Virus record (IMG/VR): IMGVR_UViG_3300033388_000956
Location: 3,259 to 23,619 of that record
Source: a virus
Length of the DNA stretch: 20,361 bases
Reading direction: 5' to 3' (one strand)
The number at the start of each line of letters is the position of its first letter. Position 1 is the first letter of the stretch. Positions 2,466-19,933 of this stretch are shown in pieces. Both the position numbers and the translations under genes were made by a program. The notes beneath the pieces are model-generated. The model had not been told where the DNA came from, searched no databases, and saw nothing but the letters and a program-made list of their open reading frames with translations.

Positions 2466-4316
2466 ATGCCTAAAAAGGCCGATAAGACCGAAGATTTACA
2501 TAATCTCTTAGTTTCACACTTTGAAGATTTCATTTCATCCACACAGACAAATAGAGAGCTGTGTGAGCGCGACCGTGATTATAATGATCATATTCAGTGG
2601 ACATCATCAGAATTAGCTGAGTTAAAAAAGCGTAAACAACAACCATCAATAAATAACGTAATCCGTAAGAAGATGAACTTTCTACGCGGTTATGAGCGTA
2701 AGATTCGCACAGACCCTAAAGCATATCCTAGAACACCAAATCATGAAGATGATGCAGAAGCGGCTACAGATGCCCTTCGTTACATTGCGGATAATACTGA
2801 ATTCGATGTAGCACGTTCTAGTTTTTGGGATAACTATATAATTGAGGGAACAGGCGCGGTTGAAGTATTAGTCAGCAAAGACAAAAAGCGTGAGATTCAA
2901 ACACAGCATATCCAATGGGATAGATTATATTGGGATGTTCATTCTAGAAATAATGATTTCAGTGATGCAAGTTATACAGGCATTGTTATCTGGGATGACG
3001 TAGAAAACGTAAAAGCTAATTTCCCAGACTCAGAGGATGTTATAGATAACGCAATGGATAGCTCAAGTAGTGAGTCAGAGACATTTGAAGATAAACCTAC
3101 TACTAAGTGGTCAGATCATAAGCGTAAGCGCGTAAGAATATGTCAAGAGTATTTTAAGCATAAGGGTGAATGGCATTTAGCCTTCTTTACTAAATCAGGC
3201 TTCTTAGTTGAGCCAATGAAAGCCCCTTGGTTAGATGAAGATGGTAAGCCTGAGAATGGCATGATTATGCAGTCTGCTTATGTTGATCGTAACGGTAATC
3301 GTTATGGTGAGCCTCGTTTTATGATCGAGATTCAAGACGGTATTAATCATCGTGAGTCTAAGATGGTGCATTTAGTCTCACAACGTCAAACATTTGGTAA
3401 TAATCGTGCCTTCCCTGAAGGCGTAGCTAAACAGAAGCGCGAATTAGCCAAGCCTGATGGTCATATAGAGTTAGCTGGAAATGCTGAGATGGGGCGTGAT
3501 TTTGGCGTATTGCCCACAGGTGATATGGCTCAAGGTCAATTCCAACTATTACAAGAAGCAAAACAATCAGCATTAGATAATGGCTCAAGCCAATTCCAAG
3601 GCGCAGCAGGTGGCGATGGTCAGTCAGGCCGCGCTATTATTGCTATGCAAAACGGTCAACAGATAGAGATTAATCCATTAGTTGATGGTAAGAGACAGTT
3701 TGAAAAGCGTGTATACAATGCTTGGTGGAATCGTGTTAGACAATTCTGGACTGATGAAAGATGGATACGGGTAACTGATAACGAGCAGAATCAAAAGTTT
3801 GTAGGTTTAAATAAGCCTGTAACAGTAGCAGAAGCAATTGAAGAAGAGGGCGGAGTTGTAGCCCCTGCATTTGCACAAGACCCACGATTACAAGCGGTAT
3901 CAAGAGTTGATAATCAGCCTGCTGAAATAGAAGTAGATATTATCATTGAAGATGCACCTGATGTTGTAACAATCCAACAAGAAGAGTTTAGAAACCTTAT
4001 TGATCTCGCAGGTGTTGGGATTATGTTTGATAAGGCCGATTATATTAAAGCTTCTAATCTACGCAATAAAGCGGATATGCTTAAAACTATTGAAGGCGCT
4101 AGCGAAGCCGAGCAACAAGCGGCACAAGCACAGGCAGCAGCAGCACAGAAACAAGCTGAGAGCTTCGCACAATTACAAGCCGAAGCCGTTGCAGCAGCAG
4201 CAGAGAAAGACGGTGCAAGCGCATTAAATCAGCAGGCTCAAGCGCGTAAGAATGAGCAAGAAGCTATTCAAACAGGCATCGAGAATGAACAATTAGAGCA
4301 AGGCATTAAATTATAG
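2466..4316 (+). CDS. Portal protein, P22-like
   Basis: This forms the dodecameric ring at one head vertex through which DNA enters and leaves, and on which terminase and the tail assemble. The N-terminal sequence CERDRDYNDHIQWTSSEL (residues 33-50), then LKKRKQQPSINNVIRKKMNF, matches the P22-type portal family pattern (a [ER]RD..Y..G.QW box followed by ...N.I...). The 616-residue length fits, allowing for a long C-terminus. Residues from about 545 onward are alanine-, glutamine- and glutamate-rich and look like a long helix or coiled coil, as in the P22 portal barrel. It sits between large terminase and scaffold as expected. It probably has its own promoter and leader hairpin just upstream. 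Confidence 0.9.
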   Translation: MPKKADKTEDLHNLLVSHFEDFISSTQTNRELCERDRDYNDHIQWTSSELAELKKRKQQPSINNVIRKKMNFLRGYERKIRTDPKAYPRTPNHEDDAEAATDALRYIADNTEFDVARSSFWDNYIIEGTGAVEVLVSKDKKREIQTQHIQWDRLYWDVHSRNNDFSDASYTGIVIWDDVENVKANFPDSEDVIDNAMDSSSSESETFEDKPTTKWSDHKRKRVRICQEYFKHKGEWHLAFFTKSGFLVEPMKAPWLDEDGKPENGMIMQSAYVDRNGNRYGEPRFMIEIQDGINHRESKMVHLVSQRQTFGNNRAFPEGVAKQKRELAKPDGHIELAGNAEMGRDFGVLPTGDMAQGQFQLLQEAKQSALDNGSSQFQGAAGGDGQSGRAIIAMQNGQQIEINPLVDGKRQFEKRVYNAWWNRVRQFWTDERWIRVTDNEQNQKFVGLNKPVTVAEAIEEEGGVVAPAFAQDPRLQAVSRVDNQPAEIEVDIIIEDAPDVVTIQQEEFRNLIDLAGVGIMFDKADYIKASNLRNKADMLKTIEGASEAEQQAAQAQAAAAQKQAESFAQLQAEAVAAAAEKDGASALNQQAQARKNEQEAIQTGIENEQLEQGIKL

Positions 4317-13750: not shown

Positions 13751-15769
13751 ATGCCTCGTTATAAAGTAACTAACCCAGCTACAGGTCAAGTTGTAACATT
13801 AGAAGGCGCAACACCGCCAACGGATGCTGATTTAGATGAGATATTTTCATCTATGCCGCAACAGTCTAAATATGATATTAATCAACAACAGCCTACAGAT
13901 TTAAGACAATCTTTAGCTAATAACCCAATAACAGCCACAGCAGCAGAAGCAGGTGCAGGTGTTAGTCGTGGGATAGCGCAAACAGCCGATTTCTTTACTA
14001 CTAAGCCTATACGCGCAATACAGCAATTAGCGGGCGTAGCAAAAGAAGATAGACTTACAACCTTAGAGGATACTTTCAGCGGCACGACTCAAGGTAACTT
14101 TATGAATGAAGGCTTAGGCCGTGATGTAGTTAGGGCGGGCAGTGAATTAGTAGCCCCTAGCGCGGTAGGTGGCGCAGTATTAAGAACAGCAGCAAAAGCA
14201 ATGCCTGCGACTTTAGAAATGACCACAGGTCAAGGCGTGATGAAACAACTAGGCGCATCTACTGCGGCACAAGATATTGCGGGCGGTGCTTTATCGGGTG
14301 CGGGTGGTGAATTAGGCGAAGAAGTAGGAGGTGATACAGGAAAGCTAGTAGCATCGTTTTTAACTCCGATGGCAGGGATGGCAGCCGCACCAGTTTTAAC
14401 TAAAGCATTAACTAACCCGAAACAGGCCGTTGGCTTCATAAAAGGAATAATGAACCCACTATCTAAAATGAGTGATGAGGGGGCTAGTATTTTATTGCAA
14501 GAGGCAATGATTCGTGAAGGGTTAAGCCCTGATGATATAATCAAGAAATTAGCGGTATTAGGTAAGGAAGGAATGCCCGCTGATTTAGGCAATAACTTTG
14601 CTCGATTATTAAAGACAGCAGCAAATAGAGTTGATTTAACAGAAGGCAAGGCGGCGCTAGCATTAAAGGCAAGACACGAAGGTCAATCGAATAGAGTTAT
14701 GTCATCATTAGATGATGGGACTGGCTTATCAATGCTAACGCTAGATGATGAATTGCTTAGGCTTGATAATGTAATGAAGCCACAAATAAAAGAATTGTAT
14801 AACGCAACAAGACAGCAAGACATGGAGCTTTCGCCTAAATTAATGCAATTATTCGAAGGTAACGGCTCACTAGGAAAGGCGTTTAAGAAAGCACAAACAA
14901 CTTTGATTGATAGAAGTGATGTGGGTGATGAATTAAAAAATATAGATATTATTGATGCGGTCAAACAAACATTAGACGATCAAATAAATGTAGCCATAAG
15001 AAAGGGCGCAGGCGGCAAAGCTAGAGATTTAATTAGGGCTAAAAATCTTATGGTTAATGAGGCTGATACTGCTATACCCGTTTATAAAGAGGCTAGAAAC
15101 TTATACGGCGGAAAGGTAGCGCTAGAAAATGCCGGTAAAGCAGGCACTAATTTTCTAAAGATGAATAATAGAGATTTAACAGCATTAACAAGCTCAATGG
15201 GTGAGAGTGAAAGGCGTATATTTAAGATGGGCGCTAAACAGGCTATAGTTGATAAACTTGATGACCTGAGAACAAATGCAAATATAGTTGACAGAGTTTT
15301 TGGTAAAAATGGTGACGCTGATAAATTAAGACATTTATTTGATGACGATAAAGCATTTTTAAATTTTAAAGATACTTTAGAAAAAGAGACTCAATTTGTA
15401 TTAACAAGACGCGCAGCACAGGCAAACTCTACAACGGCTAAACAATTATTTGATGATGATAATGCTTTTTCTACCTTAACCAGTATAGCGGGTGATATTG
15501 GCTCTGCTAGTGGAGCTAAGAATATATTTAATAAGATTGTTAGCGGGTTTACTGGTAAAAAATCAGATGCAGCTTATACAAAGGCATTAGAAGATGCTGG
15601 TGATATTTTATTAATAAAAGGTATAGATCCTGATAAAATAAGAAGATTATTAACGCAAGGCTCTCCAATATCAATCCAGAAAAGGATAGAGCAAGCATTA
15701 AATCGTCCAACCTTAAAAATATACACACCTACTGGCGCAACAGTAACAGCATTTGGGGATAACCAATGA
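13751..15769 (+). CDS. Probable ejection protein 3 (large internal virion protein)
   Basis: The 672-residue product begins with MPRYKVTNPATGQVVTLEG, then PTDADLDEIFSSM (about 23-35), an opening I recall from many phage internal virion proteins. Residues about 155-225 are alanine- and glycine-rich and hydrophobic (QDIAGGALSGAGGELG, VASFLTPMAGMAAAPVL) and could insert in a membrane. The rest is long helical sequence, including MPADLGNNFARLLKTAANRV and MGESERRIFKMGAKQAIVDKL, both of which resemble recurring motifs in this type of large phage protein. No peptidoglycan-cutting motif is visible. It follows ejection protein 2 without a gap, and its stop overlaps the next start. Confidence 0.6.
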   Translation: MPRYKVTNPATGQVVTLEGATPPTDADLDEIFSSMPQQSKYDINQQQPTDLRQSLANNPITATAAEAGAGVSRGIAQTADFFTTKPIRAIQQLAGVAKEDRLTTLEDTFSGTTQGNFMNEGLGRDVVRAGSELVAPSAVGGAVLRTAAKAMPATLEMTTGQGVMKQLGASTAAQDIAGGALSGAGGELGEEVGGDTGKLVASFLTPMAGMAAAPVLTKALTNPKQAVGFIKGIMNPLSKMSDEGASILLQEAMIREGLSPDDIIKKLAVLGKEGMPADLGNNFARLLKTAANRVDLTEGKAALALKARHEGQSNRVMSSLDDGTGLSMLTLDDELLRLDNVMKPQIKELYNATRQQDMELSPKLMQLFEGNGSLGKAFKKAQTTLIDRSDVGDELKNIDIIDAVKQTLDDQINVAIRKGAGGKARDLIRAKNLMVNEADTAIPVYKEARNLYGGKVALENAGKAGTNFLKMNNRDLTALTSSMGESERRIFKMGAKQAIVDKLDDLRTNANIVDRVFGKNGDADKLRHLFDDDKAFLNFKDTLEKETQFVLTRRAAQANSTTAKQLFDDDNAFSTLTSIAGDIGSASGAKNIFNKIVSGFTGKKSDAAYTKALEDAGDILLIKGIDPDKIRRLLTQGSPISIQKRIEQALNRPTLKIYTPTGATVTAFGDNQ

Positions 15770-16491
15770 CATCAATAATTACACGCGCAGGCAAAAGTTC
15801 TGCATTAACTCACACAGAGTTAGATAATAACCTTAAAAGCCTAGCTGGGATTGTTACTCCTAAAACAGCGGCTTATACTATTAATGATACAGATCAAGGC
15901 TCGACGATAGAAGTTACCCCGAGCGCAGATATAACCATATCAATTACGGCTATTACGACAATATTAACGGCTATTGATACAGTTAATTTTAAAGTAACGA
16001 TTAAAAACCTAGCTGATTATACTGTCACTATTGACCCATCAGGGTCTGAGGCTTTTGACGATGGCGCAATAACTAAATCCCTTGCTATGGGTCGATCTAT
16101 CACAATCGAAACTAATAACGCGGGTACGGCTTGGAATGTGTTGTCAATGTTTGATGGTCAAACGATTACAGGCACTTATACATCAGCAAGCATAGCAGTG
16201 GGTAGCTCTTTAACAGATGCTGATTCTATAGATATATCGGCACTAGGTACTGATGATATTAGTTTTGGATTTACAGCTAAAGCCTCAGTTACAAATTTAG
16301 TAGTTGCCGCAACAATTGAAATACAAGACCCAAACGGCTTTGTATCTTCGTTTAATTTGGGAGGTACAAGCGGTACTTTTTATGATTTTATCTCACCACC
16401 ATCGACAGGAAAGCTATCAGTTTTAATAGATAATAATCATGGGACAACAGCGCAAGTTATTACAATCAATTGGTGGGCTAAAGCGCGATGA
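15766..16491 (+). CDS. Probable short tail or fibre protein
   Basis: The 241-residue product starts with IITRAGKSSALTHTELDNNL (about 4-23). The motif LTHTELDNNLKSL (14-26) is like the LT..E.D.NF..L segment found at the N-termini of many phage tail fibre and tail collar proteins. The rest is repetitive beta-strand sequence rich in T, S, I and D, and ends VITINWWAKAR. It overlaps the previous gene (ATGA) and is itself overlapped by the next. A virion-surface or fibre-associated role is inferred. Confidence 0.55.
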   Translation: MTSIITRAGKSSALTHTELDNNLKSLAGIVTPKTAAYTINDTDQGSTIEVTPSADITISITAITTILTAIDTVNFKVTIKNLADYTVTIDPSGSEAFDDGAITKSLAMGRSITIETNNAGTAWNVLSMFDGQTITGTYTSASIAVGSSLTDADSIDISALGTDDISFGFTAKASVTNLVVAATIEIQDPNGFVSSFNLGGTSGTFYDFISPPSTGKLSVLIDNNHGTTAQVITINWWAKAR

Positions 16492-16793
16492 ATTGGCGGT
16501 ATTATAAAGTACCACGAGGCTTTAAAAGTGATGGTTGCACTTTATTTACTGATGGAAAAGAATATAAGGAATGCTGTATTATGCACGACCATGCTAGACA
16601 AAATGATACAATAAGCAATAAAGAAGCTGATAGTATGTTTTTTGATTGCATGAAGGCTAAAACAAATATATTTTTAGCCTCGATAGTTTATGTAGCGGTA
16701 AGACTTCAAGGCTTATCTAATTTAAACCCAGTTGGCTTTGCTATGCTGGCATTATTCATCAGTTTAGTTGGTTATCTAATTTATAGAGGTTAA
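16488..16793 (+). CDS. DUF1353/phospholipase A2-like protein with C-terminal membrane helix
   Basis: The 101-residue product reads VPRGFKSDGCTLF (8-20), ECCIMHDHARQ (28-38), EADSMFFDCM (46-55), then IVYVAVRLQG (66-75). The order G[FY].[ST]DG, HD, [KR]EAD..F, [YV]..VRL.G is the pattern I associate with DUF1353 phage proteins. The CCxxHD box is also the catalytic-loop signature of secreted phospholipase A2, with H33 and D34 and an acidic D48 downstream. Residues about 83-98 form a membrane helix. It may be an envelope-acting enzyme or a virion-associated factor. Function is not established, and the PLA2 reading depends on a short motif. It overlaps the previous gene (ATGA). Confidence 0.6.
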   Translation: MNWRYYKVPRGFKSDGCTLFTDGKEYKECCIMHDHARQNDTISNKEADSMFFDCMKAKTNIFLASIVYVAVRLQGLSNLNPVGFAMLALFISLVGYLIYRG

Positions 16794-19218: not shown

Positions 19219-19635
19219 ATGAAATCACTAGAACTTAGAAGAATAGCCACAGGTAAACAAGGCACTTTTGGTGCGTTGAAGTTTGATAACACCCCCTTTG
19301 CTGTGACATTAGAAAGGGAGTGGCTAGATAATCAAACGAATATATCTTGTATTCCATCAGGTGAGTATATTTGCAAGCGTGTTTATTCGCCTAAGTTTGG
19401 CAAGACATTCGAGGTTCAAGGCGTAGAATGGCGCTCACATATATTATTCCACAAAGGCAATTTAAACGACGATTCTCACGGGTGTATTTTAGTAGGGGAG
19501 TCATTTGGGTATCTAGGCAAAGATCAAGGCATTATAGATAGCTCTGCTGGATTTAGTGAGTTTATGGCCTTATTAAAAGAAGATTCAGAATTTCGGCTAA
19601 TCATAGTGAATGATTGGCTAACAGATTTATTATAA
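19219..19635 (+). CDS. DUF5675-like protein, possible lysis or cell-wall enzyme
   Basis: The 138-residue product has CIPSGEYICKRV (44-55), ILFHKGNLNDDSHGCILVG (75-93), and ends IIVNDWLTDLL. From memory this is the DUF5675 pattern (IP.G.Y, then I..H.GN....GCILVG). The SHGC box (86-89) and the upstream H78 recall the L,D-transpeptidase active site, where the cysteine is the nucleophile. The neighbour is a holin-like gene, so a role in peptidoglycan cleavage or remodelling is possible, but no activity is known to me. It could instead be a structural fold relic. AAAGG at 19204-19208 is the likely ribosome site. Confidence 0.7.
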   Translation: MKSLELRRIATGKQGTFGALKFDNTPFAVTLEREWLDNQTNISCIPSGEYICKRVYSPKFGKTFEVQGVEWRSHILFHKGNLNDDSHGCILVGESFGYLGKDQGIIDSSAGFSEFMALLKEDSEFRLIIVNDWLTDLL

Positions 19636-19651: not shown

Positions 19652-19933
19652 ATGGAACACGAATCACCTTGTCAAACTCTAACAGATTGTATTCAAGAGA
19701 AGAATGATGCTATGAACGACATAACTGATAGGCTTATAGGTATAGATCATACCCTAGCAGAACTTCACGGCATGAAGCAATCAATGGATACAATAGCTGA
19801 AATTCTAACACTTTGGAATAACGCGAAAGGGTTTACCATCATATTTAAAGCTATTGGTAAAACCGCCATATTTTTAGTCGCTTGCGGTGTTGCGTATAGC
19901 GCATTTGTTCATGGATTAGGGTCAGGAAAATGA
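19652..19933 (+). CDS. Holin-like membrane protein
   Basis: The 93-residue product has a polar, coiled-coil-like N-terminal part (about 15-57) and one C-terminal membrane helix (AIGKTAIFLVACGVAYSAFV, about 67-86), followed by a short tail with lysine. Small proteins with one to three membrane helices next to a lysis enzyme are typical phage holins, which time membrane opening. A single-helix, coiled-coil form is unusual but known among phage lysis genes. AAGGG (19640-19644) is well placed before the ATG. It overlaps the next gene (ATGA at 19930). Other membrane roles are possible. Confidence 0.55.
   Translation: MEHESPCQTLTDCIQEKNDAMNDITDRLIGIDHTLAELHGMKQSMDTIAEILTLWNNAKGFTIIFKAIGKTAIFLVACGVAYSAFVHGLGSGK

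Follow-up and report, generated by a model that had tools for sequence, protein, structure and literature searches.

A putative phospholipase A2-type DUF1353 protein with a predicted C-terminal membrane helix in the late genes of a short-tailed phage

Does a small gene among the late genes of a short-tailed phage encode a phospholipase, and if so, at which stage of infection would the enzyme act? The question is raised by one reading frame of the window, by which we mean the whole 20,361-nucleotide stretch of viral DNA that was analyzed (IMG/VR record IMGVR_UViG_3300033388_000956, positions 3,259 to 23,619). An earlier note, made from the sequence alone, had read this frame as a membrane-tailed, DUF1353-like protein with a box resembling the catalytic loop of phospholipase A2 (PLA2). 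The product is a protein of 101 residues, MNWRYYKVPRGFKSDGCTLFTDGKEYKECCIMHDHARQNDTISNKEADSMFFDCMKAKTNIFLASIVYVAVRLQGLSNLNPVGFAMLALFISLVGYLIYRG. A TAA lies 9 nt ahead of the ATG and closes the frame upstream, therefore no signal peptide is hidden there; the protein presents no N-terminal hydrophobic segment and no secretion signal. The motifs on which the earlier reading relied are all in place: SDG at residues 14–16, the CCxxHD box as CCIMHD (C29, C30, I, M, H33 and D34), EAD as E46, A47 and D48, and VRLQG at residues 71–75. D48 stands 15 residues past H33. The bare pattern DG..HD..D occurs in 0.13% of shuffles of this protein and its fuller form in 0 of 100,000; within the window, this is the sole frame with the fuller pattern.

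Table 1 Features of the PLA2-like gene and of its surroundings, in window coordinates
Feature	Coordinates	Strand	Basis
PLA2-like DUF1353 gene with C-terminal membrane helix (predicted)	16488..16793	+	ORF, ATG start, 101 aa
D15-G16-C17, putative counterpart of the group XIV PLA2 Ca2+-loop DGC	16530..16538	+	Profile alignment onto the DGC of 8k1w
CCIMHD box (C29, C30, H33, D34)	16572..16589	+	H33/D34 invariant in 25 sequences; C29/C30 invariant in the compact class
D48	16629..16631	+	Invariant in 25 sequences; 15 residues after H33, as in TtaP H70/D85
C54, fourth cysteine kept throughout the compact class	16647..16649	+	Compact-class alignment
C-terminal helix, residues 81–100, predicted transmembrane tail anchor	16728..16787	+	Hydrophobicity and model
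Upstream gene, 241 aa	15766..16491	+	ORF; 4-nt overlap (ATGA) with the PLA2-like gene
DUF5675 protein, probable lysis-cassette gene	19219..19635	+	PF18925, E 4.8e-29
Protein of 93 aa with one hydrophobic segment, holin candidate	19652..19933	+	Hydrophobicity

Assignment to DUF1353 is confirmed by Pfam, as the match to PF07087 passes the curated cut-off (27 versus 22.5 bits; E 3.5e-6), with residues 7–71 aligned to positions 18–91 of the profile. The protein also matches phrog_6098 (unknown function; E 9.8e-11) and phrog_1158 (labelled "tail assembly chaperone"; E 4.8e-10), and an NCBIfam search returned no match. Searches of viral contigs and genome contigs with the single protein retrieved zero relatives, so relatives were gathered with alignments; those from viral contigs are only 21–38% identical to it. 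In canonical DUF1353 proteins the N-terminal half is longer, and a P-[RK]-xx-W loop runs from SDGxS to HD; these features are typical of the family but do not define it, and both are shortened here. Because the Pfam score passes despite these shortenings, we describe the window protein as a compact variant of DUF1353. The core SDGC(S/T).F.DG...CCxxHD...AD.....C is common to the window protein, the compact relatives L009 and L042, and bacterial proteins, with identities of about 30–38% between the window protein and compact relatives (the phrog_6098 class). The Pfam model picks up the window protein and misses L009, L042 and L047, so that the window protein bridges the canonical and the compact groups.

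The residues that would form an active site are retained across this divergence. Loss of the HD pair from homologues was what the earlier note had named as contrary evidence; H33, D34 and D48 are unchanged in all 25 divergent sequences (the window protein and 24 relatives), as are D15 and G16, and the alignment of ten compact proteins shows no change at C17, C29, C30 or C54. We predict from this pattern that H33 is the general base, that D34 is a Ca2+ ligand, and that D48 is the partner of H33 in a His/Asp dyad. A profile built from the 24 relatives, no known PLA2 among them, was run against all PDB sequences, and its top three matches are all PLA2s: 8k1w (E 1.9e-4), 7ygk (0.091) and 1faz/1lwb (0.12). 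In this alignment the SDG-C/A-S segment, the HD pair and the later D superpose on PLA2 residues, and the predicted dyad and Ca2+-binding Asp positions of the window protein align onto those of 8k1w. The compact-class profile gave just two matches in the whole PDB, both PLA2s (8k1w, 0.028; 4aup, 2.6), and with it the cysteines of DGC and C..HD also line up with PLA2. A profile with the short Mannheimia proteins mixed in gave no PDB match, and phmmer of the single window protein against the PDB returned one transport permease membrane helix, discarded as a chance match. The Pfam model of group XIV/prokaryotic PLA2s, PF09056, has no match in the window protein at E<=1, and a compact relative matches it at only E 0.099. 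We therefore do not place the window protein in group XIV; we predict only that it works like a member.

Structure prediction points the same way. In an AlphaFold2 model of the window protein (25 sequences; pLDDT 82.6), one helix (residues 27–39) holds H33/D34 and the next (residues 44–58) holds D48, both with pLDDT near or above 90, an arrangement also found in PLA2. A second fold aligner ranked 4aup, 8k1w, 7ygk and 1faz first, with Z 7.4–6.9 over residues 1–77 of this model, and PLA2s also headed the list (Z 8.2, 7.9 and 7.1) for L042, a compact relative that was modelled separately (pLDDT 70.5). Among helical proteins, a Z of 7–8 can arise from a widespread arrangement of helices, and for the PLA2 three-helix fold it lies below the level that proves kinship. 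After the four group XIV PLA2s, the next unrelated chain followed at Z 4.8, and the rice and bee-venom PLA2s stood further down. Foldseek by itself, with the window model against the PDB, did not list any PLA2 at E<=10. What it ranked highest (prolyl hydroxylase domains and similar) scored low in probability and was discarded, and precedence was given to the second aligner and the profiles. In the viral fold library the matches were DUF1353 phage proteins, parvovirus VP1 proteins and an entomopox PLA2-like protein. Each Z is moderate taken singly; the case for PLA2 rests on two models and two sequence profiles that concur. These profile matches and the two fold comparisons support the PLA2-like reading, and the window protein is likely a PLA2-type lipid esterase.

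The C-terminal membrane helix proposed in the earlier note is also upheld: the Kyte-Doolittle mean is 1.99 over 19 residues (81–99), and the model predicts a separate helix for this segment. In none of about 45 relatives inspected is the catalytic core followed by a hydrophobic helix distinct from it, and L034 scores as hydrophobic only by way of its third core helix. The cellular compact homologues L057, L060, L061 and L063 present the opposite layout, with an N-terminal signal peptide or lipobox. Judged by sequence, the combination of a predicted C-terminal membrane helix with a cysteine-rich compact core in a phage is what is distinctive in the window protein. The four invariant cysteines would suit an oxidising compartment, and would be odd in a cytoplasm-facing domain without export signal.

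The four cellular homologues merit a remark of their own. They are encoded in bacterial genomes, carry SDGCSxFPDG..CCxxHDxxYWxGG with four invariant cysteines, go unrecognised by Pfam, and probably represent an undescribed periplasmic PLA2-like family. On Mariprofundaceae chromosomes (L047:582-884 and L048:5953-6261), compact PLA2-like genes whose products fall in no Pfam family lie directly before waaA-lpxK, the Kdo transferase and lipid A kinase genes, or before mltB-rlpA.

A link between DUF1353 and PLA2 is already published, and on present evidence the window protein is not a new kind of system. TtaP, a DUF1353 protein of Salmonella Typhi, has PLA2 activity in lysates that is abolished by D85A; its dyad is H70/D85, with D71 adjoining the His, and its authors expected PLA2 function for other DUF1353 proteins and noted prophage homologues (PMC11525133). 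Expression of TtaP did not overtly disrupt S. Typhi. Compared through the published text, TtaP and the window protein share the DUF1353 assignment, the HD pair with an Asp at +15 (H70/D71/D85 versus H33/D34/D48) and the lack of a signal sequence. They differ in that TtaP has 125 residues, no reported membrane tail, no cysteine pairs of the group XIV type, and an activity shown by assay and mutant. The islet of TtaP also encodes a muramidase related to prophage muramidases. CJE0229, a member from a Campylobacter prophage, was earlier termed a "putative secreted phospholipase A2" (PMC4004267). Proteins of this type (DUF1353/IPR010767), the namesake of the family, provide the nearest viral folds to the window model; they are free-standing phage proteins and, as far as the relatives inspected show, have no membrane tail. 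The best profile and fold matches, the group XIV PLA2s of S. violaceoruber (1faz/1lwb), Tuber borchii (4aup), Saccharothrix (8k1w) and Sciscionella (7ygk), align with the window protein at the DGC, C..HD and D positions, but are longer and secreted with a signal peptide. The phrog_6098 compact class (L009, L042, Mannheimia phages and exported bacterial proteins) has the same compact core, but its members end without a membrane helix and several cellular ones start with a signal peptide or lipobox. The parvovirus VP1 PLA2 domain has a His/Asp PLA2 fold and is likewise viral, but it is part of a capsid protein of an animal virus and serves endosomal escape. In the literature searched, we found no application of the DUF1353-PLA2 link to phage lysis.

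The stage at which such an enzyme would act must be read from gene order. The window phage is of the short-tailed type; its terminase, portal and capsid relate it to CBW1004C-Prop1 and Pseudanabaena phage Pam1. The upstream gene, whose product has no significant Pfam or PHROG family match, is by its position a probable tail or fibre protein; it is followed by the PLA2-like gene, by three genes that may be fibre-like, and then by the DUF5675 gene. The earlier note had placed the PLA2-like gene before lysis genes. Lysis-like genes do lie downstream, but they are not next to it and start four genes on, from 19219 onward. In G406, a phage related by its capsid protein (MCP), the DUF5675 homologue (L142) is flanked by a 3-helix holin-like protein and an o-spanin-like lipoprotein, an arrangement which argues that the stretch from 19219 onward is probably a lysis cassette. 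By analogy, DUF5675 may be an endolysin or another enzyme acting on peptidoglycan. The DUF5675 protein of the window contains an SHGC box, and the holin candidate after it has no family match. No DUF1353 gene was found in the capsid-related phage records (0 of 22, several of them of 27–47 kb), whereas the same query found 7 of 7 in the positive control; because of this absence, we regard the gene as accessory in the lineage of the window phage. Closer syntenic phages, sought through the neighboring gene 13751–15769, were not found. Elsewhere in the window, the product of 10515–11048 matches short tail fibre/adhesin PHROGs (phrog_12032, 1.6e-40) and recurs in viral contigs without a match to any other window gene.

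In other phages, an endolysin, holin or spanin lies within a few genes of DUF1353 in about half of those examined, a count made by eye from annotations in a set that was not randomly drawn. The order is endolysin-holin-hypothetical-Rz/Rz1-DUF1353 in IME207, DUF1353-holin-lysozyme in NrS-1 and DUF1353-holin in FNU_1P. A holin (L017) or a CHAP gene (L012) directly follows the DUF1353 gene, an M15 peptidase (DMCA) or an endolysin (L009, with a DUF1353-related gene) stands two genes ahead of it, and an amidase (Fnu1), a PGRP (Dulem 31) or an endolysin (Cygsa01) is found near it. The jumbo phages D6, Va1, PCH45, GAP32 and Lu11, and also PhAER-1 and GX15bay, present no lysis neighbor; the jumbo-phage relatives sit among metabolic or unknown genes, with DUF1353 near a PagP-like lipid A acylation gene in D6 and beside thymidylate synthase in Va1. 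Mannheimia relatives directly follow a tail fibre gene, in a P2-like and a Mu-like phage, and in KIRK a tail fibre assembly gene adjoins the DUF1353 gene. We considered whether the window protein might replace spanins that are lacking, and rejected this because IME207 carries the gene beside intact Rz/Rz1. Dulem virus 31 (L004; PP511318.1) is circular, 35.8 kb long and tailed-phage-sized, yet it is filed under Microviridae in GenBank.

The late position, the membrane tail and the lysis neighbors of relatives together suggest action on host membranes at lysis, and we infer a course of events for topology, timing, Ca2+ gating, catalysis and the part played in lysis. A small PLA2-type enzyme with a His33/Asp48 dyad, with Ca2+ held by Asp15 and Asp34, and with a C-terminal membrane helix would be synthesized late, from the part of the structural operon that runs from the fibre to the lysis genes, and its tail would keep it on the inner membrane. 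PLA2s need Ca2+, and free Ca2+ in the cytoplasm is low, because of which we expect little activity from the protein before the holin makes the membrane permeable. It would then cut the sn-2 ester of host phospholipids, and the resulting lysophospholipids and fatty acids would speed envelope breakdown beside the endolysin. Given a PLA2-type enzyme, a late role at the envelope or in lysis is modestly favored. Taken as a whole, a tail-anchored PLA2-type enzyme that helps to break the host envelope late in infection is the best explanation, one that we hold tentatively.

The same enzyme could be carried in the virion, on the tail or among the ejected proteins, and open the outer or inner membrane for the DNA in the manner of parvovirus VP1. 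Its gene has fibre-like neighbors in a short-tailed phage, the viral fold search ranks VP1 PLA2 domains near its top, and the place of the Mannheimia relatives after tail fibre genes fits as well. The product is, however, a free-standing protein with a membrane tail and no structural domain, and its absence from all 22 capsid-related records argues against a core virion part; many relatives, moreover, have lysis neighbors, which favor the lysis side over entry. We consider an entry role quite unlikely. Alternatively, an accessory gene might modify the envelope, altering host lipids in infection or lysogeny (for example in phage exclusion or lipid remodelling) with no role in lysis. The accessory standing of the gene in its lineage agrees with this, as do the surroundings of the jumbo-phage relatives, the adjacency of chromosomal compact homologues to waaA-lpxK or mltB-rlpA, and the lack of overt harm by TtaP to its host. 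The window gene is nonetheless embedded in a late structural block and small phages often have lysis neighbors, so that this explanation, too, is unlikely.

Two further alternatives dispense with catalysis. A PLA2-fold pseudo-enzyme might serve as a lipid-binding membrane adaptor: the loop from the Ca2+ site to the HD helix is shorter than in canonical DUF1353, and without a signal peptide the cysteines may stay reduced. Yet every catalytic and presumed Ca2+ residue is retained, which makes a pseudo-enzyme improbable. The PHROG label and several GenBank records would instead make the protein a tail or tail-fibre assembly chaperone in which the HD box is structural, in line with the phrog_1158 match, the nearby fibre genes and the gene order in KIRK. 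Several genes so labelled are not near tail genes, however, the invariant residues are the PLA2 catalytic set, and TtaP, a member of the family, is a proven PLA2; a chaperone is thus very improbable. The label is widely propagated for DUF1353 (phrog_1158 and GenBank phage records), we found no experimental source for it in the literature searched, and it looks like an annotation error.

Lysis by phages of Gram-negative bacteria is described in terms of holin, endolysin and spanin. That a tail-anchored, holin-gated PLA2 beside endolysin and spanins is a new sort of lysis factor, with phage DUF1353 proteins forming a lysis-phase phospholipase class, is at this point doubtful. DUF1353 genes of phages are annotated as "tail assembly chaperone" or "hypothetical" despite their PLA2 active-site residues. 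Phage DUF1353 is also a likely source of the phospholipase of the typhoid toxin islet, which holds a phage-type muramidase as well. As DUF1353 is widespread in phages, with an intact PLA2 active site and often beside lysis genes, lysis may commonly include an enzymatic attack on phospholipids as a further arm.
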